A stretch of 64,000 nt of DNA. It comes from Desulfurobacteriaceae bacterium. GTDB lineage: Bacteria; Aquificota; Aquificia; Desulfurobacteriales; Desulfurobacteriaceae. The translations under genes and the position numbers were made by a program. Shown piece after piece: positions 6,171 through 38,514 of the stretch. Where the stretch lies: NCBI GenBank assembly GCA_027063785.1, contig JAMORC010000063.1, positions 1 to 64,000 on the forward strand. Direction: 5' to 3'. The notes under the pieces were generated by a model. The model ran no database searches and was not told where the DNA came from. It saw nothing but the letters and a program-made list of their open reading frames with translations. Within the stretch, counting starts at the first letter, position 1. The number at the start of each line of letters is the position of its first letter.

Positions 6171-6186
6171 ACAGGGGTGATTTCTT

Positions 6187-8509: not shown

Positions 8510-8516
8510 TAAATCG

Positions 8517-8543: not shown

Positions 8544-8583
8544 ATAAGATAGTAGGAGATAGCGAGATTAGAGGAGAAATGTC

Positions 8584-8955: not shown

Positions 8956-8965
8956 GGACTAAAAG

Positions 8966-10315
8966 ATGGCAGGAGAACTTTATGTAAGCAATCTTGTTGG
9001 AAGTTTCGATTATCAAGAAATTTTAAATCTTTACTATCAATCAAAAATAGCCCCAATACAGCTTCTTAAACAGCAGGAGTTGAAGATTGAGGAAAAAACT
9101 TCTGCGCTTCGTGATTTGGAATCGAGGTTAAATAATTTAAAAGAAGCTTTTGATAACTTAGTTTCCAATAATTTGCTTGATCAGAAAACCGTTTCTGTTT
9201 CGGATCCTGATCTCATTAAAGTAGAAGTTCTTGATCCTTCCAAAGCCATAGAAGGTCTTTACCAAATCACTGTTAAGCAGCTTGCCCAAAATGATGTTTG
9301 GTTATCACAATCGGGAGTTCAAGATCTGGATACTGCAGTTTCGACAGGGGAAGGTCAGCTGGAGATCCGATATGAGGGAGAGGTTGTTGCTGTTGTTGAT
9401 TACGATGCAGATGCTTCTGATTCTTCAAAGCCATCTACTCTTTCAGAAATTGTGAATGCAATAAATAATTCTCAGGATAAAGTTAAGGCCTCAGTTATAT
9501 TTGACGGAGATAATTACAGGCTTTTGTTATCTGGAACTGCTACGGGTGATGATGCTGATGTGTCGATATCGGAAACGGGAGATGGGGATCTTTTAGATAA
9601 ACTGGAACTTGGAGACAATTATTCTGATAGCCATGTTCAGGTTGCTCAGGATGCAAAGTTAGAAATATACGGAACTGTTATTTCATCTTCCAGCAATACG
9701 TTTGTTGATGCGATTCCCGGTTTAAAGCTTGATGCTAGCGAGGTAGGATCTACTACAATAGAAGTTTCTAAAGATTTTCAATCTCTGAAAGATGCTTTAA
9801 ATTCTTTCATTGAAGCTTACAACTCTATAGTTGACTTTTTGCAGGATAAGGCTGGAAAAGATGGAGTATTATCCGGAGATAATACTGTTTACTTAGTGAG
9901 ATCTTCTTTGCTTTCAAGGTTTCAGCCTCTCTTTAACTTAGGCATTTTGGACGTAGATAAGGATACGGGACACTTAAACGTGGATTCTCCAAAGCTCAAT
10001 AATTTGTTGGAAAATTCCCCTCAGGAAATTAAGGATGCTATTGGTCAACTAAAAACTTCACTTCAAGATTATTTGCTTTTTTTGACCAGTCCAGAAAGTC
10101 CTGTAGAGAACGAGCTTGATAACCTTAATCGGCAAAAGAATAGAATTGAGGATAGGATATACGATCTTGATAGCATGTTGAAGGAACAGGTTGAGCTTTT
10201 CAGGAAACAGCTGGTTCAACTACAGTTGCTGCAGGCTCAGATGGAAGAGTTAAGGGCAAAAATAGCATCTACTTTTGGTGTCACATCAATACTTTCAAAC
10301 TCCAAGGGAGAATAA
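8966..10315 (+). CDS. fliD: Flagellar filament cap protein FliD (HAP2)
   Basis: 449 residues. N-terminal FliD domain (residues 1-105, coiled-coil start then a VSVSDPDLIKVE strand), a middle domain with YQITVKQLAQ and repeated Asp/Ser-rich strands, and a C-terminal domain ending in a coiled coil (DNLNRQKNRIEDRIYDLD near 385-402), typical of the filament cap that guides flagellin insertion at the tip. Length is normal for the family. The gene is 10 bases after flaG and 3 bases before fliS. Confidence 0.93.
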   Translation: MAGELYVSNLVGSFDYQEILNLYYQSKIAPIQLLKQQELKIEEKTSALRDLESRLNNLKEAFDNLVSNNLLDQKTVSVSDPDLIKVEVLDPSKAIEGLYQITVKQLAQNDVWLSQSGVQDLDTAVSTGEGQLEIRYEGEVVAVVDYDADASDSSKPSTLSEIVNAINNSQDKVKASVIFDGDNYRLLLSGTATGDDADVSISETGDGDLLDKLELGDNYSDSHVQVAQDAKLEIYGTVISSSSNTFVDAIPGLKLDASEVGSTTIEVSKDFQSLKDALNSFIEAYNSIVDFLQDKAGKDGVLSGDNTVYLVRSSLLSRFQPLFNLGILDVDKDTGHLNVDSPKLNNLLENSPQEIKDAIGQLKTSLQDYLLFLTSPESPVENELDNLNRQKNRIEDRIYDLDSMLKEQVELFRKQLVQLQLLQAQMEELRAKIASTFGVTSILSNSKGE

Positions 10316-10318
10316 GTC

Positions 10319-10675
10319 ATGAATCCTTATCTCAAGATGCAAGTTGATACCTCAACGCCGGTTGAGCGGGTTGTTTTACTCTATGATAAGGCTATTGTAC
10401 TTCTTAAGGAGGCTATTGAGGCGCTGAAGGTTGGCGATATTCCCCGAAAAGTCAATTCAATAGCAAAAGCTGAGAGGATAATTCAGGTGCTTAATTCCTC
10501 CCTTGATATGGAGGCAGGTGGGGAGGTGGCGAAAGTATTAAGGGAATTTTACGATACGGTTTTAGCTGGACTTTTTGTTGCCAATAAAGATAATGATAAA
10601 CAGGTTCTTGAAAATATAATAATGATGTTAGAGGCAGTTAGGGAAGCGTGGGAAGAAGTGAATTCGAAGTTTTAA
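10319..10675 (+). CDS. fliS: Flagellin export chaperone FliS
   Basis: 118 residues, all helical, with the FliS signature VERVVLLYDKAIVLLKEA near residues 16-33 and an N-terminal NPYLKMQV segment. FliS binds the C-terminal helix of flagellin in the cytoplasm and prevents early polymerisation. Placed directly after fliD, as in most flagellar clusters. The next small gene begins before this one ends. Confidence 0.93.
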   Translation: MNPYLKMQVDTSTPVERVVLLYDKAIVLLKEAIEALKVGDIPRKVNSIAKAERIIQVLNSSLDMEAGGEVAKVLREFYDTVLAGLFVANKDNDKQVLENIIMMLEAVREAWEEVNSKF

Positions 10676-10902
10676 GATCAAAGTTGATAGTTTATGTAAA
10701 TGAGGAAAATTACAGAGAGGCTTTGAAGCTTATTTCTTCTCTCTCTGAAAGTTTACCTCAATTTAGTAGAGAAGAGGCAATGGAGCTTATTGCTCTTATT
10801 TCTGAACTTCAGAAGAAGCTTAAGGAAAAAGAGGAAAAGCTTTTAAAGAGCATAGCTGATAAGCTAAAAGTTAAGGGGTCTTACCTGAAATGTTCCTCGT
10901 AA
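10648..10902 (+). CDS. Small helical protein, possible FliT-like chaperone
   Basis: 84 residues from a GTG start that overlaps fliS by 28 bases and ends 13 bases inside bioD. The sequence is predicted helical with heptad-like spacing (ISELQKKLKEKEEKLLKSIA near 51-70). FliT, a chaperone for the cap protein, is a small helical protein encoded right after fliS in many bacteria, so position and size suggest a FliT equivalent. Sequence similarity to FliT is not evident by eye, and the ribosome site is weak. Confidence 0.55.
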   Translation: MGRSEFEVLRSKLIVYVNEENYREALKLISSLSESLPQFSREEAMELIALISELQKKLKEKEEKLLKSIADKLKVKGSYLKCSS

Positions 10903-11513
10903 CTGGAACTGATACGGGAGTTGGCAAGACCTATTTCACTAGTTGTGCAGTTGAGTTTCTGAGAAGTAAAGGGAAAGAGGCTGTTGGTTTCAAGCCTGTT
11001 GAGAGTGGTTGTTCTGACGGATGTCAAGATGCAGATTTGCTTTCCGAAGTTTCTGAGGTAAAGCTTTCTCCAGTTTATAGCCTTAAGTTACCCTTAGCAC
11101 CAGCAGTCGCTGCGGAAATTGAAGGAGTGGAGATTTCTGTTGGGGAAATAGTGGATGCAATTTTAAGGCTTTCGAAAGAATTTAGATTGCTTTTCATCGA
11201 GGGAGCCGGCGGCCTTATGGTTCCCATAACGTGGGATTTTAATTACCTGGATTTGGCTAAAGCAATTTCTGCGGAAGTTGTTGTTGTGGCTTTGAATAGG
11301 CTCGGGGTTATAAACCATACTCTTTTGACAGTTAAGATGTGTGAGCTTTCGGGGATTAAAGTAAGGGGGGTAGTTCTAAATAGCTTTAAAGACTTTGATG
11401 AAAGTTTCAAGACGAACTTTGACAGTCTTTCCCGTCTTCTTGATGTTCCCGTTTCTCCCTTTTTCTCAAAAGCTGATATTTCAAAGGTTCTAAAGGACTT
11501 CTCCATTAGTTGA
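10890..11513 (+). CDS. bioD: Dethiobiotin synthetase BioD
   Basis: 207 residues. P-loop GTDTGVGKT (residues 6-14), KPVESG near 36, and EGAGGLMVPI near 107: the three landmarks of BioD, which closes the ureido ring of biotin using CO2 and ATP. Biotin would serve carboxylases of an autotroph. The gene overlaps the preceding small gene, so it seems carried at the end of the flagellar transcript; no other biotin genes are in the window. Confidence 0.93.
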   Translation: MFLVTGTDTGVGKTYFTSCAVEFLRSKGKEAVGFKPVESGCSDGCQDADLLSEVSEVKLSPVYSLKLPLAPAVAAEIEGVEISVGEIVDAILRLSKEFRLLFIEGAGGLMVPITWDFNYLDLAKAISAEVVVVALNRLGVINHTLLTVKMCELSGIKVRGVVLNSFKDFDESFKTNFDSLSRLLDVPVSPFFSKADISKVLKDFSIS

Positions 11514-11537
11514 AAATTTCTTGCATCGGGCTATTAT
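11510..11537 (+). promoter_or_regulatory. Possible sigma-70 promoter for the peroxidase gene
   Basis: TTGAAA, 16 bases, TATTAT, ending 36 bases before the ATG at 11574. Moderate match; position fits. Confidence 0.4.
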
Positions 11538-11573
11538 TTCTAATTGAAAACATTAAATCGAGGAGGGATGGAG

Positions 11574-12767
11574 ATGAGAAGGCTGCTAACTGCTTTATCT
11601 TTTTTAGTTTTGGGAACTTCTGCTCATGCGGGGGTCTGGGAGAGTAACTGCGCTTCTTGTCACAACGGTGCCGTTGCTCCTACTAAGGAGAAACTTCTCA
11701 AAAAGTACCCGACGAAAAAGGCGTTTATGGATGCAGTGAGAAGGACTGTTCAGCAGGGTAAGATGCCCAGGGGGCTCGGTTACGGAATGGCTGCAAAGGA
11801 GCTTTTCGGCGGTGCTGTTTCAAGGCCGATTCAAAAGGTAAAGGCAGGCAACGACTACAGGAAGTTCTTTACTCCGCTTCCTGCTCTTCCGCCAATACCT
11901 GCTGATAATCCGCTGACTCCTGAAAAGGTTAAGCTCGGAAAGATGCTCTACTACGATCCGAGGCTTTCGAGGAGCAAGGTTATCTCCTGTAATACGTGTC
12001 ATAACCTCGCTCTTGGAGGAGACGATAACGTTAAGACCTCTCTTGGTCATCAGTGGAAGACCGGCGGGAGGAACGCTCCGACAACACTTAACTCCGGATT
12101 CTTAAGGGTTCAGTTCTGGGACGGAAGGGCTCCTACTTTGGAGGCTCAGGCTGCGGGTCCTCTTCAGGCCCACGTAGAAATGAATTCTACTCCGGAGCTT
12201 GTGGTCAGAAGATTAAAGTCTATACCTGAATATGTCAGGCTTTTCGAGAAGGCTTTCCCCGGGGAAAAGGATCCCGTAAACTTTAAGAATGTAACTAAGG
12301 CCATAGCGGCTTTTGAGAGAACTTTAAATACACCCAACTCTCCCTTCCAGAGATATCTGCTCGGGGACGATAATGCTCTGACTCCTATTCAGAAGAGGGG
12401 AATGAAGCTTTTCGTTAAGTATGGCTGTATCGCCTGCCACAACGGTCCAGTTCTTTCTGATGGGAAGTTTCACAAGTTTAAGTGGAATAACGACACCGGA
12501 AGGTATAAGGTTACAAAGAATCCAGCAGATAAATACATGTTTAGGACTCCCCAACTCCTTAACGTGGGTGTAACTGCTCCGTATTTCCATGACGGTTCTG
12601 TAAATAGCCTTGAGGAAGCAGTCAGGATTATGGCTAAAAAGGAACTTGGTAAAACTCTTTCAAAATCTGAAGTTCATGCAATTGCTGAGTTTCTCCGTTC
12701 TATGACCGGTGAAGTTCCCCTTGAGGCGAGAGTTCTTCCTCAGCTTCCGGGGAATAATCCGGAGTAG
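11574..12767 (+). CDS. Tri-heme periplasmic cytochrome c peroxidase (CcpA/MauG family)
   Basis: 397 residues from the ATG at 11574, chosen because AGGAGGG lies 6 bases upstream. A signal peptide (RRLLTALSFLVLGTSAHA) directs export. Three CxxCH heme motifs: CASCH at 26-30, CNTCH near 139 and CIACH near 285. The last two belong to the normal di-heme peroxidase core (with FWDGRAPTLEAQ and VGVTAPYFHDGS); the first is an extra N-terminal heme domain, as in E. coli YhjA-type enzymes. It reduces H2O2 with electrons from quinol or cytochrome c. Own terminator downstream; probably monocistronic. Confidence 0.9.
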   Translation: MRRLLTALSFLVLGTSAHAGVWESNCASCHNGAVAPTKEKLLKKYPTKKAFMDAVRRTVQQGKMPRGLGYGMAAKELFGGAVSRPIQKVKAGNDYRKFFTPLPALPPIPADNPLTPEKVKLGKMLYYDPRLSRSKVISCNTCHNLALGGDDNVKTSLGHQWKTGGRNAPTTLNSGFLRVQFWDGRAPTLEAQAAGPLQAHVEMNSTPELVVRRLKSIPEYVRLFEKAFPGEKDPVNFKNVTKAIAAFERTLNTPNSPFQRYLLGDDNALTPIQKRGMKLFVKYGCIACHNGPVLSDGKFHKFKWNNDTGRYKVTKNPADKYMFRTPQLLNVGVTAPYFHDGSVNSLEEAVRIMAKKELGKTLSKSEVHAIAEFLRSMTGEVPLEARVLPQLPGNNPE

Positions 12768-12775
12768 TTTTTATT

Positions 12776-12805
12776 AAAAGGCCCCGGTTTTTGTCGGGGC
12801 CTTTT
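12776..12805 (+). terminator. Rho-independent terminator after the peroxidase gene
   Basis: 11-bp perfect stem AAAAGGCCCCG / CGGGGCCTTTT around an 8-base loop, starting 8 bases after the stop. A-tract and T-tract on either side make it potentially bidirectional. Confidence 0.92.
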
Positions 12806-12819
12806 GTATAATTCCGACT

Positions 12820-13374
12820 ATGCTTTACTTCATTTCTGATACCCATTTTAAGCATGAGAATATACTTCGACTTAATCCACTAAAAAGGAAAAAGGGGTTT
12901 GAATTTCAAATTATCGAGAACTTGAAGGTTCAGCTGAAGGAAGGGGATACTCTTTATCATCTGGGGGACTTTGCCTGGAGTCTTGATGAAGAACTTCTGG
13001 ATGCTTGGAGGTCTATTCCCGGAAAGAAAGTCTTGGTAAAAGGTAATCACGATAATTTTTTCGGGGATTCAGACCTGTTTCTTTATTTTGACGAAGTTAT
13101 TAACTTTTCCACAGCAGTAAAGGTTAGGGAGAAAAACGTTCTTCTCTGTCACTATCCGGCTCTTGATCTCAGGACTTTCAGGTTTAAAGAACTTCAGCGT
13201 AAAGTAGAAAAGGTATTTAAGGAGAGCGGTTCTGTTCTGCTTCTTCACGGACACGTTCACTGGAATCCGTACTGCGTTTTTTGCGGTTGTCATTTAAAGG
13301 GGATTAGGTGTTTTAACGTTAATGTAGAATTTAACGGCAATAGGGCAGTTTCTGAGGAGGAGCTTCCACTGTGA
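12820..13374 (+). CDS. Metallophosphoesterase family protein
   Basis: 184 residues with all five calcineurin-type metal motifs: SDTH (6-9), GDF near 49, GNHD near 75, a CHYP histidine and GHVH near 147. These bind two metal ions for phosphoester cleavage. The size and DTHFKHENI start resemble bacterial phosphoesterases of unknown substrate. The ATG has no ribosome-binding site, and a TATAAT lies only 7 bases before it, so the message may be leaderless. The stop overlaps the GTG of kdsC. Confidence 0.85.
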   Translation: MLYFISDTHFKHENILRLNPLKRKKGFEFQIIENLKVQLKEGDTLYHLGDFAWSLDEELLDAWRSIPGKKVLVKGNHDNFFGDSDLFLYFDEVINFSTAVKVREKNVLLCHYPALDLRTFRFKELQRKVEKVFKESGSVLLLHGHVHWNPYCVFCGCHLKGIRCFNVNVEFNGNRAVSEEELPL

Positions 13375-13838
13375 TAAAGCTTATAATCCTTGATGTTGAC
13401 GGCGTGCTTACCGACGGGCTTATAACTTATGATTCTGAGGGAAGGGAATATAAGAGCTTTAACGTGAAAGACGGATACGGGATAGTCAGGGCCCGGAGAA
13501 TGGGGATAGAAATTGCTGTTGTAACAGGTAGATTCTCTTCTATGGTTGAAAAACGGTGCAGTGAGCTTGGAATAAGGGAAGTCTATCAGGGGGTTGAGAA
13601 TAAACTGAAGATTTACAACTACTTGAAGGAAAAGTATGATTTAGAAGATTCAGAAATTGCCGTTATGGGAGATGATATTCCTGATATTGAGCTTCTGAAG
13701 AGAGCAGGCCTTTCCGGCGCTCCTTCTGATGCTGTTGAAGAGGTTAAGAAAGTGGTGAATTTTGTCTCTTCAAAGCCGGGAGGGCGCGGGGCTGTCAGGG
13801 AGTTTATAGATCTTATTCTTTCAGAGAAGGTTGAATGA
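13371..13838 (+). CDS. kdsC: KDO-8-phosphate phosphatase KdsC
   Basis: 155 residues, HAD superfamily without cap domain: DVDGVLTD (8-15) holds the nucleophile, VVTGR the second motif, and GDDIPDIELL the acidic metal motif. KdsC removes phosphate from KDO-8-phosphate in the cytoplasm during lipopolysaccharide core synthesis. Genes kdsC-lptC-lptA-lptB in this order are conserved in Gram-negative bacteria. GTG start overlapping the previous stop (GTGA). Confidence 0.93.
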   Translation: MIKLIILDVDGVLTDGLITYDSEGREYKSFNVKDGYGIVRARRMGIEIAVVTGRFSSMVEKRCSELGIREVYQGVENKLKIYNYLKEKYDLEDSEIAVMGDDIPDIELLKRAGLSGAPSDAVEEVKKVVNFVSSKPGGRGAVREFIDLILSEKVE

Positions 13839-14371
13839 AGGGATTGTTTCAAAGAGTTGCTTTTTTCCTGTTGTTGATTTCTTTTATTCCGTTTTTGTTC
13901 TTTTTTGTGAGAAGAGAATCTCCACCGCCGAAAGTTAGAGTTGAAACTCACAGGAATCAGGTAGTAAAGGATTTTTCTCTTCGTTCTTCCGGCCGTGATT
14001 TCTGGGTTTTGGTATCGCCGGAAGCGCTTTTTCACGGAGAACAGGAAGTATTCCTTAAGTTTCCGAAACTTACTTTATACCGTAATAACGGGGCTCGAAT
14101 TGTTGTCAGGTCAAGTGAGGCTGTTTACCATAAGCAGAAAAATAAGCTTTACCTTAAAGGTGTAAATCTGACGGGCAGAGATTTTAAAGTAACTGCACCT
14201 TCAGGCGTTTTTGATTTTAAAAGCGGGAGATTCTTTGCGGAAAAAGGATGTAAAATTGTCCTTGAGGGCTCTGGCGTTACTACCGGTAAGCGGTGTATTT
14301 TTAACCTGAAAAAGGATTCATTTTCGGTTTCCGGGAAAGTAAAATCAATTTTCAGGAGCGGGGTGAGATGA
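13835..14371 (+). CDS. lptC: LPS transport protein LptC
   Basis: 178 residues: a single N-terminal transmembrane helix (about residues 8-25) followed by a periplasmic beta-jellyroll domain. LptC links the inner-membrane LptBFG pump to the LptA bridge. By-eye similarity is weak, as usual for LptC, but topology, length and position between kdsC and lptA are diagnostic. Overlaps both neighbours by 4 bases. Confidence 0.85.
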   Translation: MKGLFQRVAFFLLLISFIPFLFFFVRRESPPPKVRVETHRNQVVKDFSLRSSGRDFWVLVSPEALFHGEQEVFLKFPKLTLYRNNGARIVVRSSEAVYHKQKNKLYLKGVNLTGRDFKVTAPSGVFDFKSGRFFAEKGCKIVLEGSGVTTGKRCIFNLKKDSFSVSGKVKSIFRSGVR

Positions 14372-14856
14372 AGAGGATTGCTGTACTTTTGCTTGCATTT
14401 TTCCTGGCGTTGCCGGCCTTTGGGGCTTCTGAGGAAGAGAAGTTGCCTTTTGTCGTTGAGTCGCAGAAGCTCTTTTACAACAAACAAAAAAGAACAGCAA
14501 CTTACGTTGGTAGTGTAGTTGCACAGAGAGGGAGAACAATTATCAAAGGCGATAAGATGGTGATTTACTTCGACTCAACAGGAAAGGAAATTAAAAAAGT
14601 CATTGTAACGGGTAATATCTACATCAAAGATGAGAGGGGAGAAGGATGGTGTAAAGAACTTGTCTACTTTCCATATCAAGAAAAAGTAATTCTCAAAGGT
14701 AATGCGAAGTTAAAGCAGGATAAAAACTTGATAGTCGGAGATAAAATTGTTGCTTACCGTTCTGGGAAAGTGGAAGTTGAAGGTATAAAGCGGAAAGTTA
14801 AGACGGTTATATTCCCGGAAGAGAAGGGAGGAAGACCTGAGCAGGGAAGTCGCTGA
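14368..14856 (+). CDS. lptA: LPS transport periplasmic protein LptA
   Basis: 162 residues with a cleavable signal peptide (KRIAVLLLAFFLALPAFGA) and an OstA-like beta-jellyroll domain (VVESQKLFYNKQKRTATYVG near 29-48, IIKGDKMVIYF). LptA oligomers form the bridge carrying LPS across the periplasm. The 3' end carries the GGGAGG that appears to serve as ribosome site of lptB and overlaps it by 20 bases. Confidence 0.9.
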   Translation: MKRIAVLLLAFFLALPAFGASEEEKLPFVVESQKLFYNKQKRTATYVGSVVAQRGRTIIKGDKMVIYFDSTGKEIKKVIVTGNIYIKDERGEGWCKELVYFPYQEKVILKGNAKLKQDKNLIVGDKIVAYRSGKVEVEGIKRKVKTVIFPEEKGGRPEQGSR

Positions 14857-15580
14857 TTTAAACTATCTAAAAGCAGAGAATATTACCAAGATTTACGGCG
14901 GCAGAAAGGTTGTAGACGGAGTTACTGTAACAGTTAGGGAAGGGGAAGTAGTTGGTCTTTTAGGTCCCAACGGTGCCGGAAAGACGACGACCTTTTACTG
15001 TATCCTCGGCCTTGTAAAACCCGACGGCGGGAAAGTGTATCTCGGAGAAGAGGATATTACCGAAGATCCAACATATATTAGGGCAAGGAAGGGAATTTCT
15101 TACCTGCCCCAGGAGCCTTCCATTTTTAGAAAGCTGACGGTAGAAGAAAACATTAAGGCCGTTCTTGAGATGCACGGCTTTTCAAGAAAGGAAATCAAGG
15201 AAAGAACCGACTGGTTACTTGAAAGGTTTGGGATTTCTCACCTTCGTAAGCAGAAAGCCTCTTCCCTTTCTGGAGGGGAGAGGAGGAGGCTGGAAATTGC
15301 CAGGGCCTTATCCATAAATCCCAAGTTTCTCCTACTTGACGAGCCGTTTGCCGGTATAGATCCCATTGCCGTTTACGAGATTCAGGAATTAATTTTAGAG
15401 TTAAAAGAGCTGGATATAGGTATTCTTATAACGGATCACAATGTAAGGGAAACTTTGCGTATAGCTGATAGAGTTTATGTAATTGCCGGTGGGAGAGTCG
15501 TATCTAAGGGTAAGGGAGAAGAAGTGGTTCTGGATAAACGGGTTAAGGAGATTTATCTTGGTAAAAAATTCAAATTGTGA
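14837..15580 (+). CDS. lptB: LPS export ABC transporter ATPase LptB, apparent CTG start
   Basis: Cytoplasmic ATPase of LPS export, 247 residues if started at 14837. Walker A GPNGAGKTT near 45-53, Q-loop YLPQEPSIFR, signature LSGGERRR, Walker B FLLLDEPFAG, H-loop ITDHN and the C-terminal YLGKKFKL all match LptB. In this frame there is no ATG, GTG or TTG between the upstream stop (14786-14788) and the GTG at 15035, which lies after the Walker A motif. A CTG at 14837 has GGGAGG exactly 5 bases upstream and gives the normal N-terminus (ENITKIYGGRKVVDGV). A CTG start is therefore inferred. Confidence 0.88.
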   Translation: MSREVADLNYLKAENITKIYGGRKVVDGVTVTVREGEVVGLLGPNGAGKTTTFYCILGLVKPDGGKVYLGEEDITEDPTYIRARKGISYLPQEPSIFRKLTVEENIKAVLEMHGFSRKEIKERTDWLLERFGISHLRKQKASSLSGGERRRLEIARALSINPKFLLLDEPFAGIDPIAVYEIQELILELKELDIGILITDHNVRETLRIADRVYVIAGGRVVSKGKGEEVVLDKRVKEIYLGKKFKL

Positions 15581-15731
15581 TTGATTGTGATGTTTAAATT
15601 TGGTTTAGTTGATTGGTCTAAAGTTTATTAGGTATTAAGGTAGAGAAGTTGAGGGATAAAACCAAGGAAAGAGAGGGATGTATCGTTTTGCATTTGCATA
15701 TTTGTTCCTGGATTAATAGGGAGGAGATATT

Positions 15732-16199
15732 GTGCTAACTATAAGATTTTTTAAGCAGGAAATTAAGATTGATGTAAGTGCTAAACTTAGAGCGGGATTT
15801 AGTTTAGTTGAATTGGTAGTTGTTCTTTTTATTATATTTATACTTTCTGTTATTAGTTTTGAAACATTCAAAAGACAAATTATAAGGAAAAAAGTTGAAA
15901 CAACTGCTGAAGATATAAAAATTGCTCTTATTAAAGCGCAGTCTTATGCCTTTAAAAAAGGTAAAACTGAGGTTTTATTTGAAACTCACGGCTTAAAAAT
16001 TTTGGATAGTGATAAAAAGGAACTGTATAAGGTAGAGTTTCCTGAATGGATTTTTGTAAAGTCGTCTTTAAAAAAGGTTTATTTTTATAGGAGTAAACTG
16101 CCTTCTGCTAATTTGTCAATTGAAGTTAGAGCAAATAATTATCATTGCAATATTGTTCTCTCGTTTGTTAGTGGAAAAATTAGTTTGGAGTGTGGGTAA
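15732..16199 (+). CDS. Prepilin-like protein, GspH/FimT type
   Basis: 155 residues. After a basic leader comes the prepilin cleavage and methylation site AGFSLVELVVVLF (G-FxxxE), followed by a hydrophobic helix and a small C-terminal domain with two cysteines. This is the layout of minor pseudopilins of type IV pili or type II secretion. GTG start with GGGAGGAG upstream. The long 20-residue leader before the cleavage site is unusual. First of four such genes in an AT-rich block; the 151-base gap before it probably holds the promoter but no convincing one is seen. Confidence 0.82.
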   Translation: MLTIRFFKQEIKIDVSAKLRAGFSLVELVVVLFIIFILSVISFETFKRQIIRKKVETTAEDIKIALIKAQSYAFKKGKTEVLFETHGLKILDSDKKELYKVEFPEWIFVKSSLKKVYFYRSKLPSANLSIEVRANNYHCNIVLSFVSGKISLECG

Positions 16200-16201
16200 A
16201 G

Positions 16202-16576
16202 ATGTTAAGAAGAGGTTTTTCTATTGTAGAAGTTATTTATGCAATGGTAATATTTTTAATTATCGTTTTGGGAATAGTTCCACTGGTATTTACGAGTAAA
16301 AAAGCTCAGAAAGTTTCTCAGGAGAGGGAACATGCTGTGATTCTTGGAGAAACACTTATAAACAAACTAGGTTCTCTGGATTTTGATAATGCTTGTTTAA
16401 AAAACGGTGTGAAAGTTAACTGCAAAAACGATGATTGTTGTTTTGATTTGAAAGGTAACGATAATATAACGTATTCCGTAAAACAGATTGATAGTGATGA
16501 GAAAGTTATAACTGTAACAGTTAAGTATGGAAAAGGTTCAAAGATTGAGTTTAAAAGAGTAAAAGGAGATATATAA
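16202..16576 (+). CDS. Minor prepilin, PilV type
   Basis: 124 residues from ATG 16202 (a GTG at 16190 is also possible). Short basic leader, RRGFSIVEVIYAMVIFLIIV prepilin motif with the conserved Glu5, then a small domain with four cysteines (CLKNGVKVNC, CC), which may form disulfides. Typical of the PilV-class minor pilins that prime pilus assembly. Its stop overlaps the start of the next gene. Confidence 0.78.
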   Translation: MLRRGFSIVEVIYAMVIFLIIVLGIVPLVFTSKKAQKVSQEREHAVILGETLINKLGSLDFDNACLKNGVKVNCKNDDCCFDLKGNDNITYSVKQIDSDEKVITVTVKYGKGSKIEFKRVKGDI

Positions 16577-17142
16577 TGTTCCCAAGGAAAGGCCTTACAT
16601 TGATAGAACTGTTAGTAGTTATGTTTTTGGGAGGACTTATTTTGATGGTTAGTTTGAGTTTTTTTACAAAAAATTATAAAATGATTGTCAGAAGTTCTAA
16701 AGAGATAGATGGAGCTATTTCTTCCTTGAATACAATAGATTTGATAATTTCCGATCTTAAAAAGGCAGGCTATGGTATTACTGATAAAAAATCATATCCT
16801 CCGATTTTTTGGGATGAGGAGAATAAGACTTTAACAATAAAATATGTTAATTACGACAAGAGTGATTGTGAAGGTGTCAGTTTTACATCAGGAGATAACT
16901 GTTCTTACGAAATAAAGTATGTTTTTCAGAACAATAATATAAAAAGAACTGTCGATGAAGGGAGTGATGGAAGTGGGACTTCAGCTTATCTGTTTGATTC
17001 TAAAAAGTTAGTGGTAAAAGATTTTACTGTTAATTATGATAATAAGACTAAGACTGTAACTTTTACACTTGTTGTAGAAAATAAGATGTCTGGAAAAGAA
17101 AGTAATTTTATAGATTCTGTTGAGTGTTTGAACTGCGAATAA
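16576..17142 (+). CDS. Minor prepilin, PilW type
   Basis: 188 residues with RKGLTLIELLVVMFLGGLI at residues 4-22, a clear prepilin peptidase site (KG-LTLIE) and membrane helix, then a PilW-like domain (DLIISDLKKAGYG near 55-67). Ends in a CLNCE motif. The order GspH/FimT, PilV, PilW, PilX is that of minor-pilin operons. Exported by the type IV pilus machinery, whose core genes are not in the window. Confidence 0.8.
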   Translation: MFPRKGLTLIELLVVMFLGGLILMVSLSFFTKNYKMIVRSSKEIDGAISSLNTIDLIISDLKKAGYGITDKKSYPPIFWDEENKTLTIKYVNYDKSDCEGVSFTSGDNCSYEIKYVFQNNNIKRTVDEGSDGSGTSAYLFDSKKLVVKDFTVNYDNKTKTVTFTLVVENKMSGKESNFIDSVECLNCE

Positions 17143-17153
17143 GGGGGAGAAGA

Positions 17154-19649
17154 ATGAATAGCAGAAAGGGATATATACTTTTGGCTGTCTTGGGAATTGT
17201 TATACTTTTATCTTTAGGTGTGGCAACTTTAGCAAAGTTTACAGTAACAGAAACAAGGACGATTACGGATTCTTTTTACTCAAGGAAGGCTTACGAAATA
17301 GCAAGAAGTGGTATAGAAGTCGGCCTTCTTAAGTTTAAAAAAGAAGAAACGTGTGGTTGGAAGATAGAAGAAGACTTTGATGGTGGAAAATTTGTTGTGG
17401 AGTCTTCTGGTAGCCCAGAGAACTGTAGGCTTGTGTCGTACGGATACTACAAAGGAGCTGTGAGAAGAATAGAAATTGGTTCTTCTCTTCGAAGCTTGGC
17501 AGCCTTTGTGGTCAATAAGCTGAGAGTTTTTGATTCCTTTGACTTTTCTCCAAAAATCGAAAATGCTGATTTTCTGATAGGCAGTGATGCTTTTGTTGAT
17601 GGAAGTATGGGTGATGATGCTATCGATGTTTTGAAAAGTCAGGGTTTTAAAGCCAGGAAAGAAAAAGGCCATTATCCTGCTTATCCGCTGATTTCCATTC
17701 CTTCCTACACGGGATCAGTCCCGAGTTACCAGCGGGAAAAAGTTACTCCACCACCCTTTCCTAAAACTTGCGATGTTACTATAGACACGGATACTTACTA
17801 TCTCTGGAAAATAGATTCAAGTGGAAAAATGGATCTTTTAAACAAGGTTTCTGGAAAGCACGAATACGTCAATCTTAAGGATGTGAACGTTTTGTGCGGA
17901 AAAGGAAATGATAGACTTGAAATTGCGAAAGGTATCACAATAGGAAAAAGCTGGATAAATAGCGATGATCCCCGATTGGTAATTTATTCTCCAAGAGGTA
18001 TAGTTGTGTGGGGAAAGATTAGCGTCGTTAACGATTACTATTCTTATTTTGATTTACAGGTTCTTTCTAAAGGATACATTGGAATAAACAAATTAGACGT
18101 TCCTTCTTTATCTGTAAATGATAAATTTAATTTGACGATTTATACGCCAGAAAAAGTAGAAGTACCCAGTTTGAGCATAAATGGGTTGTCTTCCTCAAAG
18201 GGAGACTTTACTTTGAACATAATTCCTGGAGAAGTGGGGATAGTTGATCTGAACGTTAAGAATGTTAACACACCTCAGGGTAAGATGATCGTTAATATTA
18301 ATAGTGATAAATTGGGAATACAAAACCTCAACATTGAGGGGTTCTCATCCGAAAAAGGAATAGAAATAAAGCTTGAAGGAAATGAAGTTAATGTAGGAAG
18401 TTTCAGCTTCAAGAACGGAAGTGTAAACTCGTTAACTGACTTTAAAGTTATCTCAAGAGGGTATTCTGGGGTTGGTAGTTTGGTTGTATCGGGAGTGTCT
18501 TCAAAAGCTACGAACTTTGTTATGTATGGAGGTGATAGTGAGTTTGATAAGTTTTCCATAAAGAATGGTAATCTCGGGAACTTAGGTCTTACTTTGGTTC
18601 CTTGGAGGGAACTTGGTTTTAATAATCTTTCTATAGAAGGAATAAGTGCAAACAACCTTCGTGTCCTGATGCATGCACCTAAAGTTGAATGGAAAAAGTT
18701 TACTGTTAAAAACTCGCAAATTGACGGGGATGTAGATTTAGATTTTGCTGGCAGTTCTATAGCCTATGAAAGGTTTGATCTTGAAGGAATCGGAGTAAGA
18801 AAAAACCTACAGGTTGGCTTTTACTCCAGTGATAGTTTAACGGCTGTTGATGTAAATGTAGAGAATTCGCGGATAGATGGCAACTTTGGTCTTATTTTTG
18901 CAATTTCTACTCCTATCGGAATTACCGGTTATGAGACGAAAATTGGACAAATAAATATAGAAGGGACCTCAATGAGAAATTTTGATCTTTACCTTTTGAA
19001 TGCTAAGGATCTTGCCTTTTTTGAAGATGGAGTAGATTTTCAAAAAAATCAAGTAACAGAAAACGCAAATTTTGTTGTTTATAATCGTGATGGAGATATA
19101 TTTGTTAAAGAGAATCTCTATAGAATAAAAAATTCTACATTTAGGAATTCTCCTAATGTGTTCTTGATTGCAGGCGGCAGTGTCGGTTGGGGGTATGAAT
19201 CCCTACCTACGAGCGTAGAGGATCTTTTTGGTAGTATGGAAGCACACCCGGAATATGCTTCTCTCTACATGAATGTTCTTATGAAGGACATAGTGAACAA
19301 GTTTTTCACTAAGGATACAGGTCAACTTTTGAAATTTGAAAAGAATACCCATGGAGTTAACTTTGTTACATGGTTAAGACCAGAGTCAAGGGGTAATATA
19401 GTAAGTCCCGGTGGAATTGATATCAAAGATGTAAACAGCGAGTCAAGACTTGCACTCTGGACACAGGGGAATCTTTATCTTGGTGACTTTACTTATTTTG
19501 GAACAGAGCCTCCAAAAGGTTTGACAATTGATGATGTAGCAGAATTTTGCAAAGAAACTTTTGGAATGGTAAGAGACCTATATTGTTTCATGTCTGCGTC
19601 GGGTATAGGAAACGAAACCATTAAGGTTAGTAGCTGGCTGGTGGATTGA
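17154..19649 (+). CDS. Giant PilX-type minor pilin with C-terminal repeat domain
   Basis: 831 residues from ATG 17154 (AAGGGGGAG upstream). Residues 1-30 hold a PilX-like prepilin start (RKGYILLAVLGIVILLSLG); residues 40-110 look like the PilX stalk. Residues 311-619 consist of about twelve repeats of 24-27 residues with alternating hydrophobic strands of the form (hydrophobic)xxLxIxG(I/V)S, as expected for a beta-solenoid. A final domain of about 200 residues has one Cys cluster. Normal PilX proteins are under 200 residues, so this is probably an adhesin or filament-tip subunit displayed on a type IV pilus. Last gene of an AT-rich block. Confidence 0.8.
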   Translation: MNSRKGYILLAVLGIVILLSLGVATLAKFTVTETRTITDSFYSRKAYEIARSGIEVGLLKFKKEETCGWKIEEDFDGGKFVVESSGSPENCRLVSYGYYKGAVRRIEIGSSLRSLAAFVVNKLRVFDSFDFSPKIENADFLIGSDAFVDGSMGDDAIDVLKSQGFKARKEKGHYPAYPLISIPSYTGSVPSYQREKVTPPPFPKTCDVTIDTDTYYLWKIDSSGKMDLLNKVSGKHEYVNLKDVNVLCGKGNDRLEIAKGITIGKSWINSDDPRLVIYSPRGIVVWGKISVVNDYYSYFDLQVLSKGYIGINKLDVPSLSVNDKFNLTIYTPEKVEVPSLSINGLSSSKGDFTLNIIPGEVGIVDLNVKNVNTPQGKMIVNINSDKLGIQNLNIEGFSSEKGIEIKLEGNEVNVGSFSFKNGSVNSLTDFKVISRGYSGVGSLVVSGVSSKATNFVMYGGDSEFDKFSIKNGNLGNLGLTLVPWRELGFNNLSIEGISANNLRVLMHAPKVEWKKFTVKNSQIDGDVDLDFAGSSIAYERFDLEGIGVRKNLQVGFYSSDSLTAVDVNVENSRIDGNFGLIFAISTPIGITGYETKIGQINIEGTSMRNFDLYLLNAKDLAFFEDGVDFQKNQVTENANFVVYNRDGDIFVKENLYRIKNSTFRNSPNVFLIAGGSVGWGYESLPTSVEDLFGSMEAHPEYASLYMNVLMKDIVNKFFTKDTGQLLKFEKNTHGVNFVTWLRPESRGNIVSPGGIDIKDVNSESRLALWTQGNLYLGDFTYFGTEPPKGLTIDDVAEFCKETFGMVRDLYCFMSASGIGNETIKVSSWLVD
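18084..19010 (+). repeat. About twelve degenerate 25-residue coding repeats
   Basis: Protein-level repeat inside the giant minor pilin (residues 311-619). Unit starts include VEVPSLSINGLSS, VGIVDLNVKNVN, LGIQNLNIEGFSS, VNVGSFSFKNGS, LGFNNLSIEGIS, VEWKKFTVKNSQ and LTAVDVNVENSR. Asparagine, glycine and serine recur at the turn. The DNA is not closely repeated, so the array is old or under structural selection. Confidence 0.75.
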
Positions 19650-19660
19650 ATGAACTCTAG

Positions 19661-19879
19661 CTTTCAAATGGCGACTTATTACTTAGGATACTGAAAACAG
19701 CGTTCCGGATACGACGAATGCGGAAGAGTATTTATTCTGGAAACCGTTGTGAAAAATATCCGCCGGAGAAGAAGCCCCTTGTACTTGAGATGCTTTCCGA
19801 AAGAATGGGCATAAGTGCAGTTGCGGGAGCACTGGGAATTCCCGAAAGAACAATTTCCTGTTGGCTCCACAGGATTTGA
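19661..19879 (+). pseudogene. Decayed transposase-related helix-turn-helix fragment
   Basis: An open stretch (best from ATG 19718, 53 codons) encodes KYPPEKKPLVLEMLSERMG followed by SAVAGALGIPERTISCWLHR, a helix-turn-helix of the kind found in IS1-like InsA proteins (pattern Y.pe.k...l..l..G.s...iar.lgi....v..W). No zinc-finger N-terminus and no catalytic ORF follow; the gene ends against serS. Read as a remnant of an insertion sequence at the edge of the pilin block. Alternative: a tiny unrelated HTH protein. Confidence 0.45.
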
Positions 19880-19899
19880 ACTTTGAACAAAGTTCTGAT

Positions 19900-21569
<1,670 letters not shown>

Positions 21570-30637: not shown

Positions 30638-31861
30638 ATGGGAAGGTTTTACGTTTCTTACGAGGAAGCTCTTTCCCTGATACTCGATAGAGGATCTAAC
30701 CTTGGGTTTGAGGTTGTCGATCTTTTATCAGCGAGAGGCAGATTCCTGGCCGAGGATCTGTGTGCGGACAGGGATTGGCCTGAAGTTCCCCTTTCGGCTA
30801 TGGACGGTTATGCCGTTCGGGGGGAGGATTTGGAAAGATTTAGGAAATTTAGACTTATCGCTGAAGCACCTGCCGGGACGAAATTCAGCGGATTTTTGGG
30901 AAAGGCCGAAGCTGTTAAAGTTTTTACGGGGTCTCCGGTACCCCGAGAAGCCGATACTGTTGTTCCTGTTGAATACGCCCGTGAGGGAAATGGTTTTGTT
31001 GAGTTTCTCCGGGTTTTTCCGAAAGGTTCCAACGTTAGGCAGGTGGGGGAAGATTACAGTAAGGGCAGAACACTTTTGCGGAAAGGGGATCTTTTAACTC
31101 CGTCGGAGATCGCCTTAATTGCTTCAATCGGGAGGAGTTCGGTTAAGGTTTACAGAAAACCGGTTGTTGGAATTGTCGCTACGGGAAATGAAGTCGTAGA
31201 ACCTGAGTCTTCGGTGACTTCGCTTCAGGTTAGAAATGCAAATGCCTATTCTCTTTATGCTTTAGTTGAGGAGTCCGGAGCTGTCCCCGTCTATCTTGGA
31301 ATTGTGAAGGACAGTCTTGAGGAGGTAAGAAAACTTCTTGACAGGGCTTTGGCCGATTGCGACGTTGTTGTTACCTCCGGAGGTGTTTCTACCGGTGATT
31401 ATGATTTTGTGAAAGACGTTATTGATGAAATAGGAGTTGAAAAGGTCTTTTATAAAGTGAAAGTGAAGCCCGGGAAGCCGGTTCTGTTTGGGGAGCGTAT
31501 GGGAAAGTTTATTTTTGCTCTTCCCGGATTTCCCGTTTCGACAATAGTAGCTTTTTCCCTTTTTGTTTTTCCGTTCCTGAGGAAGCTTTCCGGGGCAAGA
31601 AGGGAGTTCTGGTTTAAGAAGAGGGTTAAAGGAAAACTTTTAAGTGGTTATAGCAGGAAGAAAGCAGAAAGAACGGAGTTTGTCCGCTGTAACTACGTTT
31701 ACGACCTTGATAGAGGAGAGTACCTGATTTCTCCCTTAACGAGACAGGGGTCAGGGGTTCTTTCATCCCTGAAGGGCAGGAAGGCGCTTATGGTTGTCCC
31801 TGCCGGTGTTAAGGAATTTCCTCCCGGTGATTGTGTGGAGGTTATTCTTGTGAAGGAGTAA
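30638..31861 (+). CDS. moeA: Molybdopterin molybdenumtransferase MoeA
   Basis: 407 residues from ATG 30638 (CCGGAGGG upstream). Features: VPLSAMDGYAVRGEDL near 48-63, VFTGSPVPREADTVVP near 88-103, TGNEV, VTSGGVSTGDYD near 247 and LPGFPVS. Inserts molybdate (or tungstate) into adenylylated molybdopterin. Oxidoreductases with this cofactor, such as nitrate reductase, are expected elsewhere. Its end overlaps the peptide-binding protein gene on the minus strand by 20 bases. Confidence 0.94.
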   Translation: MGRFYVSYEEALSLILDRGSNLGFEVVDLLSARGRFLAEDLCADRDWPEVPLSAMDGYAVRGEDLERFRKFRLIAEAPAGTKFSGFLGKAEAVKVFTGSPVPREADTVVPVEYAREGNGFVEFLRVFPKGSNVRQVGEDYSKGRTLLRKGDLLTPSEIALIASIGRSSVKVYRKPVVGIVATGNEVVEPESSVTSLQVRNANAYSLYALVEESGAVPVYLGIVKDSLEEVRKLLDRALADCDVVVTSGGVSTGDYDFVKDVIDEIGVEKVFYKVKVKPGKPVLFGERMGKFIFALPGFPVSTIVAFSLFVFPFLRKLSGARREFWFKKRVKGKLLSGYSRKKAERTEFVRCNYVYDLDRGEYLISPLTRQGSGVLSSLKGRKALMVVPAGVKEFPPGDCVEVILVKE

Positions 31862-33602
31862 TAAATATCCTCTCCGGCTGATAAGTACCCCAGACGGTAG
31901 GGTAGTAGTTCTTTACTCTGTTCCTGACTGCCTCGAGGACTAAGGGAGCGGCAATGTAGATCAAAGGCTGTTGGTAAGCTATGATTCTATAGGCTTTCTT
32001 GTAAAGTTTTACCCTCTTTTCAAAGTCAAGAGTCTTGGCTGCTTCCTCGAATAGCCTGTCAACCTCTGCTTCCCATTCGGTTGCCGGTTTTTTCTGATTC
32101 GGATTCCACATGTGTAGCTGACCGCTGCTCATCCAGACATTCCTGCCTCCGTTTGGATCTATTGAGCCGGTTAGGCCGATGATTACTGCGTCGAAGTCGT
32201 GTGTGTGGAGAAGCTTTTCAACAAGGTTGTTAAAGTCAAGTGGTTGAAAGTGAACGTCTATTCCCAGTTTCTTTAGGTCGTTTTTCAGTATAGCTCCTAT
32301 CTGTACCCTTGCCGGGTTGTTGGAGTTTGTAAGGAGGTTAAACTCAACTTTGTGTCCGTCGGGGGTTTCAAGCCAACCGTCTCCGTTTCTGTCCTTGAGA
32401 CCTATTTCTGAAAGGAGTTTCCTTGCTTCCTTGAGGTTGTAGGGGAATTTTGGGTAGCTGGGGTCATAATAAAGCTTATTGGCCGGAGTGACAGGTGAGT
32501 AAATGGGAAAGCCTAGTCCGTTGTAGACCGTCAGGACAATTCCTTCCCTGTCAACTGCATGTGAAATCGCCCATCTAAATCGTCTGTCACTAAACAGTTT
32601 CCACTTCCAATCGGGCAGTACATCTTTTTTCTGGTTGAAGCAGATGAAATCGGCGGTTAGGGAAGGTCCTAAGTTGTATATCGTGTAATCTCCTTTTCCT
32701 TTCTTAAGTTCCGGATAGTCATCTCCTCTGATACCGTAGAAGTCAATTTCACCGGCTTTAAACTTCAGGAGCTGGGTGTTCTTGTCCGGGACGATGAACT
32801 TTATCTTCTTTTCAACGTAAGGGAGCCGTTGGCCTTGTTCGTCCTTTTTCCAGTAGAAAGGATTTCTCCTGTAGATTAAGTACTGTCCCGGCACGTACTT
32901 AACAAGTATATAGGGGCCGGTTCCGATAAGTTTCTTTGGCGGAGTTGAGTTATTCCAGAATCTTTCGAATTTTCCTTTTTTAACGGCCTTTTCAACGACG
33001 TGTTTCGGGAATATCGGTGCTGAAAGGGAGTAGAGGAGAGGAGCGAAGGGAGCAGGCAGGTCAAACTCTACGGTGTAGTTATCAATTTTTTTTACTTTAG
33101 GCAGTTTTCCGTCAATCAGAAAGGAATCCTTTGTCGAGTTGGGAATTTTCGGGTTAAAGTATATATCGTTGTAGGTAAACACGACATCATCAGCCGTAAA
33201 CTCCACTCCGTCGAACCACTTTACTCCCTTCCTCAGGTGAAAGATCCACTTTAAACCTCCCTCCTTAAACTCCCAGCTTTCGGCAAGTGCTCCTACCGGC
33301 TTCAATGTCTTAAGGTCGATTTCTGTCAGGCCTTCAAAGAGTTCGCCTACGGCTTCTGTAGAGGAAGTCTCGTGGGCCATCACAAGGTTGAAAGTTTTAG
33401 GGTCTGAGGAAACGGCTTCGTAGAGTGTTCCTCCCCTCTTACCCGGTAGAAACTTTACTTCGGAAAGGTTAACGCTTTTACCGATTACTTTTGTCCCTAC
33501 CTTTCCCTGCGGTTCGGGAATGAAGAAGAGGGGAAGTAAGGCAGCGGCTGTGATTCCTAAGATGAACATAATTCCTTTTAGAAAGGGATTTTTAGCTCTC
33601 AT
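31842..33602 (-). CDS. Peptide/nickel-type ABC transporter substrate-binding protein (SBP family 5)
   Basis: 586 residues from the ATG at 33602; a longer start at 33641 is possible. An N-terminal hydrophobic segment (FLKGIMFILGITAAALLPLF) acts as signal or anchor; no lipobox Cys. The OppA/DppA fold is shown by DPKTFNLVMAHE, WIFHLRKGVKWFDG, FTADDVVFTYND, GTGPYILVKY and RRNPFYWKK. Binds peptides or a related solute in the periplasm. No permease genes adjoin it. A TAAAAT 8 bases before the ATG suggests a short or absent leader. Confidence 0.88.
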   Translation of the reverse strand: MRAKNPFLKGIMFILGITAAALLPLFFIPEPQGKVGTKVIGKSVNLSEVKFLPGKRGGTLYEAVSSDPKTFNLVMAHETSSTEAVGELFEGLTEIDLKTLKPVGALAESWEFKEGGLKWIFHLRKGVKWFDGVEFTADDVVFTYNDIYFNPKIPNSTKDSFLIDGKLPKVKKIDNYTVEFDLPAPFAPLLYSLSAPIFPKHVVEKAVKKGKFERFWNNSTPPKKLIGTGPYILVKYVPGQYLIYRRNPFYWKKDEQGQRLPYVEKKIKFIVPDKNTQLLKFKAGEIDFYGIRGDDYPELKKGKGDYTIYNLGPSLTADFICFNQKKDVLPDWKWKLFSDRRFRWAISHAVDREGIVLTVYNGLGFPIYSPVTPANKLYYDPSYPKFPYNLKEARKLLSEIGLKDRNGDGWLETPDGHKVEFNLLTNSNNPARVQIGAILKNDLKKLGIDVHFQPLDFNNLVEKLLHTHDFDAVIIGLTGSIDPNGGRNVWMSSGQLHMWNPNQKKPATEWEAEVDRLFEEAAKTLDFEKRVKLYKKAYRIIAYQQPLIYIAAPLVLEAVRNRVKNYYPTVWGTYQPERIFITPSQE

Positions 33603-33649
33603 GCTAACGGATTTTACAAAAAAAACATTAAGAAAAGCCATTGTAGATG

Positions 33650-35713
33650 TTAGAGGAAATATAAGGCTCCTTCTTCAAGAAGGTATGGATCAACTATCCA
33701 ATTTTTTCTCAAGGCATTCACGTAAAGATGGGAATAGTGAACAGGAGCAGGTAATCTTAGTTTGCTCTCGTCACCGAATATGGTAGAGAAGTTAAGTTTG
33801 GTTAGTAAAAAGAGAGTTTTTAGAAGCTCTTCAGTAATTGGAGCAAAAGAATAATTCCCGTAATTTATTTTCCAGAAGCTATCTACTAAAATACTTCTTC
33901 CTCCTTTATAGGAATGGGGTAAAAGAACGGCCAAATCATTCCTTAAAACAGCTCCTCTTCTTCCATTATCAGATAATATTCGGAGAATATGCCCTTTTTT
34001 TATATTAGCGACGTGTACTTCCAGCTTTCTGTCCTTTACTACGTAAGATTCTGATAGAGAACCTACTTCCTCTCTGTATAAATTGCCGTCTTTTAGCAAT
34101 AAAACTCTACTGCCATGAACATCCAATTTTTCTGCAACTATTTCAAGTATCCAGTTAAGGTTGTCTATTTTTTCTCCTCCGGTATCAATGGAAACGGGAT
34201 AAAGACCTTTTATTGTGCCGTCAGACAGAAATACCGTTATTCCTCCTGCGCGAGTCCTTCGATTGAAAGAATCATTGCCGCAATCAACGCCTATAATAAA
34301 GTCATAATTGAACTTTTCTGCAAGAGAAAACGGCCTTATGCCGAGCTTGGTGTATATGTTATAAACTAAAGTTTTAGAAATATTATCAGGATTAGAATTC
34401 TTCTTCCAATTATCGTAAACAACGAACTGGCTTATTATGTTTCTGGCAAATAATCTTCTTTTAAGAGAGTTATATTTTTCTTCGCTCATTTCGGGAATAA
34501 GACAGAGGGCAAAAGAAAATCTGTATTTACCGATTTCTTCCTGTACTTTTTCGGGTAAGGAAAAATCGTTAAAGTCGACTGTAAATACGAGCTTGCCTTT
34601 AGCAGGGCGTATTGTTTTGAATAATTTTTTATAATTATCTATTCTATTTAGCTTTAAGGAATTTTTGGTAATTTGATTGCTCAAGAATGCGTTTACGCTG
34701 TTTTCATTAAATTTCTTATCTACCATGACAAAAAACGGCATTCCTCCTTGTTCTTCTATATATTCCGGTACAGAAAGTGGAGGATAATTTAAGACTTCCT
34801 TAAGTGAAGCAACTTTTTTCTCTACTTCATTTATGCTTTTTACCAGGTAATATGGTTTTGTAAAGAACTTTCCTTTTAAACTATACGGAGTGTCGAGTAA
34901 AAACGGAATTTTTTCGGCAATTTCTTTTAATAGTTTTCTTCTCTTAGAGTTCGAAATCGTGAACTTATTAGGAGATAGAGTTTTTGTTAGGTAGTAACAG
35001 GTATCGGGATGAAATGGAAAAGTTATTCCTCCTTTGCTGAACTTAGCTTTCAAAATGGGAAATTCTTTTGGAAGGTTAGTTGCTCCGTATCTTTCTTTGA
35101 AAAACTTTAAGATGTCCTCTCTTTCTTCTTTGGAGGGGTTTTTGATTACTTCTTCTACATTTATAAAATCGCCCTTACGGGGACTGTTGACCGGAGGATA
35201 GTAAAGCAGTCTTTTCCCTATTATTTCTTCCAGAGTGACTTCATTTTGTTTAAGCATTTGATATACACTTTTATGTGGTTTAACTTGGTACTTTAAATCA
35301 AAAAATAGGTAGAATTTTTCTCTAATTTTTCTTACGGTAAAACCTTTAACGGAGAGCAATGCGGAGTAGAAAGAATGTTTTTTTTCTTCTTTAGGGAGGT
35401 TTTCTTTAAGCATTTTTCTTATTCCTTTTTCGTTTAAAATTTTTATTATTAGTTTCTCTTGGACAGAATCTTTAATCTCGTGAAATGGGATTTCCTCTAA
35501 CAATTCTACATTATCGCACGATAGTGATTTCTTGTGAGATATTACTTCTACTTTCATATTTTCTATAGGGGTAATGGGCACTCCTGTGGAATAAATTTCT
35601 CTATTTCTTCCTTCCAAGTCCTCTGATTTAGGAGTAAGGTGAAATTTATAGACAATATTGGGAATAATGGAAGGCGTTATTTCGAAACCGTTAAGTTCTA
35701 TTTCGATATTCAT
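33650..35713 (-). CDS. ago: Long-A prokaryotic Argonaute, catalytic DEDH tetrad intact
   Basis: 687 residues from ATG 35713 (GGAGG 9 bases upstream). Layout fits N domain (1-100), PAZ (about 165-265), MID (about 340-465) and PIWI (466-687). PIWI catalytic residues: D477 in FIIGVDCGND, E514 in TGGEKID, D542 in LLKDGNLYREE, H662 in PAPVHYSHL, nearly the same spacing as Thermus Argonaute (D478, E512, D546, D660). MID has a Y414-K418-Q429-K456 pattern for a 5'-phosphate guide end. The C-terminus (LPAPVHYSH...GALYFL) resembles Aquifex Argonaute. Predicted guide-dependent nuclease, probably DNA-guided. AT-richer than its neighbours, suggesting acquisition. Divergent from gyrB; no cas gene near. Confidence 0.93.
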   Translation of the reverse strand: MNIEIELNGFEITPSIIPNIVYKFHLTPKSEDLEGRNREIYSTGVPITPIENMKVEVISHKKSLSCDNVELLEEIPFHEIKDSVQEKLIIKILNEKGIRKMLKENLPKEEKKHSFYSALLSVKGFTVRKIREKFYLFFDLKYQVKPHKSVYQMLKQNEVTLEEIIGKRLLYYPPVNSPRKGDFINVEEVIKNPSKEEREDILKFFKERYGATNLPKEFPILKAKFSKGGITFPFHPDTCYYLTKTLSPNKFTISNSKRRKLLKEIAEKIPFLLDTPYSLKGKFFTKPYYLVKSINEVEKKVASLKEVLNYPPLSVPEYIEEQGGMPFFVMVDKKFNENSVNAFLSNQITKNSLKLNRIDNYKKLFKTIRPAKGKLVFTVDFNDFSLPEKVQEEIGKYRFSFALCLIPEMSEEKYNSLKRRLFARNIISQFVVYDNWKKNSNPDNISKTLVYNIYTKLGIRPFSLAEKFNYDFIIGVDCGNDSFNRRTRAGGITVFLSDGTIKGLYPVSIDTGGEKIDNLNWILEIVAEKLDVHGSRVLLLKDGNLYREEVGSLSESYVVKDRKLEVHVANIKKGHILRILSDNGRRGAVLRNDLAVLLPHSYKGGRSILVDSFWKINYGNYSFAPITEELLKTLFLLTKLNFSTIFGDESKLRLPAPVHYSHLYVNALRKNWIVDPYLLEEGALYFL

Positions 35714-35758
35714 TGTTTTTATCCTCCATTTTTGCAATTAAGTTTTACAATTAGGAGA

Positions 35759-35787
35759 ATCATAGTCTGTCTTTGAAAATTATGCAA
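35759..35787 (-). promoter_or_regulatory. Candidate promoter of the Argonaute gene
   Basis: On the minus strand TTGCAT, 17 bases, TATGAT, placing transcription start about 40 bases before the ATG. The -10 matches five of six consensus bases; the -35 only three. Confidence 0.4.
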
Positions 35788-35880
35788 CTCTCAATTAACA
35801 TCATCCAGACTTCCTGATGAGAATCAATACTACTGTGCATTTTTTAGTTTCTTAAAACCTTAAGTTTCAAGTCCTTAAAA

Positions 35881-36057
35881 TACTCTCTTAGAGGTAAAAA
35901 AATCCCGACTTTCCGTTTTCCTGTGGACTGTGGAAAAACGACGTCCGTAGGGTAGAAGCTAAACCTACGAAAACGGAAAGTTTCTTATTTGATAAAGGGA
36001 AGAAGTTATCGATGGAAAAGCTTATATTGAAGAACTGCAGATTCACCTAAGAGAGTA
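35881..36057. other. Nested inverted-repeat element between ago and gyrB
   Basis: The 395-base gap between ago and gyrB contains an outer inverted repeat, TACTCTCTTA (35881-35890) and TAAGAGAGTA (36048-36057), extendable by GGT/ACC with a two-base bulge. Inside lies a 13-bp perfect repeat ACTTTCCGTTTTC (35908-35920) / GAAAACGGAAAGT (35969-35981), and within that GGAC/GTCC (35925, 35943) and CGTAGG/CCTACG (35946-35951, 35964-35969). As RNA it could fold into a branched structure. A TGTGGAAAA at 35930-35938 also fits a loose DnaA box. Could be a small RNA, a small mobile element or a protein-binding region. Confidence 0.5.
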
Positions 36058-36069
36058 AAAACTCTAAGC

Positions 36070-36078
36070 TGATATAAT
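36070..36078 (+). promoter_or_regulatory. Extended -10 promoter for gyrB
   Basis: TGATATAAT is a perfect extended -10 (TGnTATAAT), 30 bases before the gyrB ATG. No good -35, which extended -10 promoters do not require. Just upstream an AGAGT-AAAA-ACTCT hairpin overlaps the end of the inverted-repeat element. Confidence 0.6.
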
Positions 36079-36099
36079 CGCCTAAAACCTAACCTTTGA

Positions 36100-38514
<2,415 letters not shown>

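Follow-up and report, generated by a model that had tools for sequence, protein, structure and literature searches.

The gene at positions 33650..35713 (minus strand) of the window, the 64,000-nucleotide stretch of Desulfurobacteriaceae DNA analysed here, encodes a complete long Argonaute of the MjAgo/PfAgo kind. It is most likely a single, horizontally acquired gene, whose product would serve in defence as a stand-alone DNase directed by 5'-phosphorylated DNA guides. The identification draws on the open reading frame, Pfam, relatives in the PDB, an AlphaFold model and Foldseek.

The frame runs on the minus strand from 35713 down to 33650, is open throughout, and encodes 687 amino acids ordered as N, L1, PAZ, L2, MID and PIWI. 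A preliminary description had placed an open frame at these coordinates correctly, and we add the strand; a plus-strand reading of the same positions was rejected for its many stops. The ATG at 35713 is a better start than a TTG upstream at 35737, because a ribosome-binding-like GGAGGAT (35721..35727, minus strand), read directly from the sequence, precedes the ATG. Collinearity of the 687 residues with relatives, together with the dN/dS reported below, is far beyond chance.

The Piwi profile check proposed in the preliminary description was run, and Pfam Piwi matched the protein with E = 5.8e-16 (59.1 bits, cut-off 28.9). PADLOC models of pAgo type also matched the gene. Its sequence relatives in the PDB were MjAgo (1.4e-54), TtdAgo (9.1e-43) and PfAgo (1.3e-37). 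The family profile matches MjAgo over its full length (residues 5-713 of MjAgo), and profile positions 143-244, in the PAZ region, align with 3da5, an isolated Argonaute chain of 128 aa (E 4e-4). An AlphaFold model made with seven relatives as input reached a pLDDT of 85.1 and a pTM of 0.81. Foldseek aligned this model over its whole length and matched it to full-length Argonautes, ranking MjAgo (5g5t, 1.8e-51) first, then TtdAgo (8wd8, a ternary complex, TM 0.82) and PfAgo, and the family profile ranks the relatives in the same order. Profile and model place N, PAZ and MID domains in the protein, as in long rather than short Argonautes, and Pfam and Foldseek agree on a PIWI domain with an RNase H fold. 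The structural comparison suggested earlier thus bore out an Argonaute fold, but the Thermus and Aquifex enzymes proposed as yardsticks, at about 1e-26, fell well behind MjAgo. By sequence and model, the nearest characterised relatives are instead the archaeal enzymes MjAgo, TtdAgo and PfAgo.

Catalytic residues were placed by comparing alignment columns with published tetrads, along with the fold score, taking DEDX (X = D, H or K) as the tetrad of a long-A Argonaute. The MID-PIWI alignment had 12 rows: the window, eight other loci, and MjAgo, TtdAgo and PfAgo as aligned by HMMER. All codons given here lie on the minus strand. D477 (34283..34285) aligns with MjAgo D504, TtdAgo D538 and PfAgo D558; E514, the glutamate finger (34172..34174), with E541, E576 and E596; and D542 (34088..34090) with D570, D608 and D628. 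These three columns are invariant in 12 of 12 Argonautes. The fourth residue, H662 (33728..33730), aligns with TtdAgo H725, PfAgo H745 and MjAgo D688. The four residues, picked out earlier as PIWI positions, are thus an exact match to the published TtdAgo columns (D538/E576/D608/H725; PMC10017986) and to those of PfAgo.

The fourth place is histidine in the window, in the copies of genomes G128 and G068, in a Thermotogota locus, in TtdAgo and in PfAgo, and aspartate in the rest, including the G135 copy from the same bacterial family. DEDH is therefore, as far as the alignment goes, ordinary for the MjAgo/TtdAgo/PfAgo branch. It was already known as the tetrad of PfAgo and TtdAgo (PMC12362761, PMC10017986), and the earlier view of DEDH rather than DEDD as unusual has to be dropped. 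The Y-K-Q-K set noted in MID holds: Y414, K418, Q429 and K456 (34346..34474) align as the 5'-phosphate pocket and are all conserved, with Y/F-K-Q-K in every one of the 12 Argonautes and F replacing Y414 in TtdAgo and PfAgo. Judged from these residues, the Argonaute is probably an active enzyme.

Relatives of the gene are rare and patchily distributed, occurring in 3 of 22 genomes of the family and 8 of 136 of the phylum, and their genomic positions differ; searches of viral, plasmid and phage collections returned no relative. Our tree is unrooted and comprises MjAgo, TtdAgo, PfAgo, the window and the eight loci, a set without long-B or short pAgos. The window copy pairs with that of G128 (support 100/99), joined next by G135 (94/91) and then G114 (98/96). 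This clade stands apart (98/96) from PfAgo/TtdAgo and from MjAgo, which groups with an Aquificales copy. MjAgo and the Aquificales copy are 52% identical, and this archaeal-bacterial pair speaks for transfer across domains within the Argonaute branch, in agreement with published trees (PMC6299218). A search of literature outside subscription found no paper joining Argonaute with Desulfurobacteriaceae or Desulfurobacterium, and none joining "prokaryotic Argonaute" with Aquificota; the subclade of window, G128, G135 and G114 copies may therefore be undescribed.

We infer activity, guide type, working temperature and role from the characterised relatives. By family resemblance, a short DNA guide would be anchored by its 5'-phosphate in the MID pocket (Y414, K418, Q429, K456) and by its 3' end in PAZ. 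At high temperature, the PIWI site formed by D477-E514-D542-H662 and two metal ions (Mn or Mg) would then cleave the complementary DNA strand across from guide positions 10/11. The guides themselves would probably arise as the enzyme slowly cuts plasmid or viral DNA without a guide, an activity reported for MjAgo and, in the form of guide-independent cleavage, for PfAgo. MjAgo and PfAgo are 5'-P DNA-guided DNases that lower plasmid transformation and, at 75 C and above, can cleave even when no guides are supplied (PMC6279821). Because these two enzymes combine DNA-guided cleavage with lowered plasmid uptake, it is most likely that the Argonaute defends its host against invading DNA and does so with no partner of its own. 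The DNA-guided nuclease of a thermophile proposed earlier is thus probable, given the tetrad columns, the MID residues and the kinship with MjAgo, TtdAgo and PfAgo. Against this reading as a whole, identity in MID-PIWI to characterised enzymes is low, the tree sets the clade apart from both MjAgo and PfAgo, the searched collections gave no phage or plasmid context, and the genomic slot of the gene also holds non-defence genes.

The slot lies between an SBP_bac_5 peptide-binding protein gene (31842..33641, minus strand; Pfam 1.8e-89, with orthologues in sister genomes) and gyrB (36109..38514, plus strand), an open reading frame 79-89% identical to gyrB in 19 sister genomes. The SBP gene lies downstream of and co-directional with ago, at a gap of 8 nt by its longest frame or 47 nt by the likelier, relative-supported start; with so short a gap, the ago promoter may also drive its transcription. 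SBP is not an ago partner, since sister genomes without ago keep it. Between SBP and gyrB, a Rad52-family gene occurs in G115, G116, G117, G119 and G132-G135, a lipoprotein-like gene in G121, a WD40 protein gene in G123, and only about 100 bp in G131 (slot seen in loci L021, L022, L028, L086 and L088). As sister genomes hold differing genes or none here, comparison identifies the interval as a variable slot and the ago neighbours as non-partners. In G122 (L087) the upstream flank of gyrB carries a PIN-domain gene and a PLD-helicase of the defence kind (C3a139 1.4e-56), which favours the defence reading. A hairpin upstream of gyrB in the window (35903-35996; 13-nt perfect inverted repeat ACTTTCCGTTTTC, z -3.4) was rejected as an Argonaute element: it has no Rfam family, is absent from the relatives examined, and is a single copy in the genome at the search depth used.

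No nuclease, helicase or Cas gene adjoins ago in the manner of an effector-partner operon. PADLOC defence models found no match among ten flanking genes, SBP and gyrB, in keeping with the earlier remark that no such partner is adjacent; the genome does encode Cas1, on another contig (C10). From this neighbourhood one may fairly suppose that the Argonaute acts alone. The G114 gene (L015 8784-14201) is followed on the same strand by an archaeal-type ATPase (PF01637) gene and a HerA-like ATPase gene, so some relatives may have partners. The G128 gene (L013 1-12500) lies in a region that may be an integrated element: around it are ORFs to which neither Pfam nor PHROG gives a name, together with a UvrD-like helicase and an AAA ATPase (phrog_4339). 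The Thermotogota gene (L044 1781-3822) is split into two frames between type I restriction HsdM and HsdS, with a DarT-macrodomain gene nearby.

An active Argonaute could instead work chiefly on the chromosome, in the role reported for Thermus Argonaute, which is to act with gyrase in finishing replication and separating chromosomes. TtAgo helps decatenation and co-precipitates with gyrase (PMC10269773), the divergent neighbour here is gyrB, sister genomes carry Rad52 in the same slot, and ago in G135, between recG and pyrD, lies end to end with recG. Nevertheless, we consider this role unlikely: the clade's other Argonautes are not beside gyrB (that of G128 sits in a run of unassigned genes), and unrelated genes fill the slot in other genomes. 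A search for Rad52 in this genome found no match, a point in favour of the chromosomal role, and the 35714-36108 gap gave only chance-level matches to a Rad52 remnant. Of the 22 family genomes, however, 13 lack Rad52, and most of these also lack ago; mutual exclusion of rad52 and ago was rejected, as both occur in G135 and neither in many genomes. It is highly improbable that ago is kept in the gyrB-rad52 slot by having taken over chromosome maintenance (replication finishing, decatenation, break repair). If true, that reading would couple the Argonaute with gyrase through their shared location.

Use of RNA guides or RNA targets, as in the Marinitoga/Thermotoga type, would suit a thermophilic bacterial host, and the sampling of the tree is too thin to settle the guide type. 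Sequence alone cannot tell DNA from RNA guide preference. Still, the MID Y-K-Q-K set and the DNA-guided nearest kin (MjAgo, TtdAgo and PfAgo) make RNA guides or targets quite improbable here.

The ago gene has 34.1% GC (GC3 30.8%), compared with 45.1% (50.7%) for the downstream gene and 48.3% (53.7%) for gyrB, as the earlier statement that it is AT-richer than its flanks had it. The G128 copy has 34.8% GC, and sampled loci of the G128 genome have 38-40%. We infer a recent arrival from a low-GC relative, although the direction is unproven and composition alone is weak evidence, because genes within the window's first 20 kb come close to ago in AT content. Positions 1-20000 (31-45% GC) carry glycosyltransferases, flagellin and pilin-like genes. 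Between the window and G128 copies, dN/dS is 0.143/1.29, or about 0.11, indicating purifying selection; therefore the gene has been kept functional. A transient passenger of no use to its host, as the seemingly recent acquisition and the absence of the gene from most relatives might suggest, is barely credible for a full-length gene with all catalytic residues intact, a clean ribosome-binding site and such a dN/dS since its divergence from the G128 copy.

The Argonaute is a compact (687 aa) candidate for cutting DNA at high temperature. Together with the G128, G135 and G114 copies it adds a bacterial subclade near MjAgo/PfAgo, at about 30% identity to characterised enzymes. Because members of this clade from a single bacterial family naturally differ, D or H, at the fourth catalytic residue, the effect of that position can be tested. 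The locus is also a clear example of an Argonaute having entered a variable chromosomal slot in a thermophile.

MID-PIWI identity to any characterised enzyme is only about 29-30%. MjAgo (Methanocaldococcus jannaschii, 5g5s/5g5t) gives the best sequence and fold E-values and shares the domain order, the MID Y-K-Q-K and the D-E-D, but it is 30% identical in MID-PIWI, has D688 in place of H662, and comes from an archaeal host. PfAgo (Pyrococcus furiosus) and TtdAgo (Thermococcus thioreducens) have DEDH in the same columns, with TM up to 0.82; they differ in their 29-30% MID-PIWI identity, F at position 414 and length (750-770 aa versus 687). AaAgo (Aquifex) and TtAgo (Thermus) share the long Argonaute fold and an active PIWI site but are far more distant: their family-profile E-values are 2.8e-21 and 8e-11, while MjAgo reaches 9e-152. 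Closest is the G128 Argonaute (L003) from a sister genus, 75% identical over its whole length and alike in tetrad and length, but set amid unassigned ORFs away from gyrB, in a host with loci of 38-40% GC.
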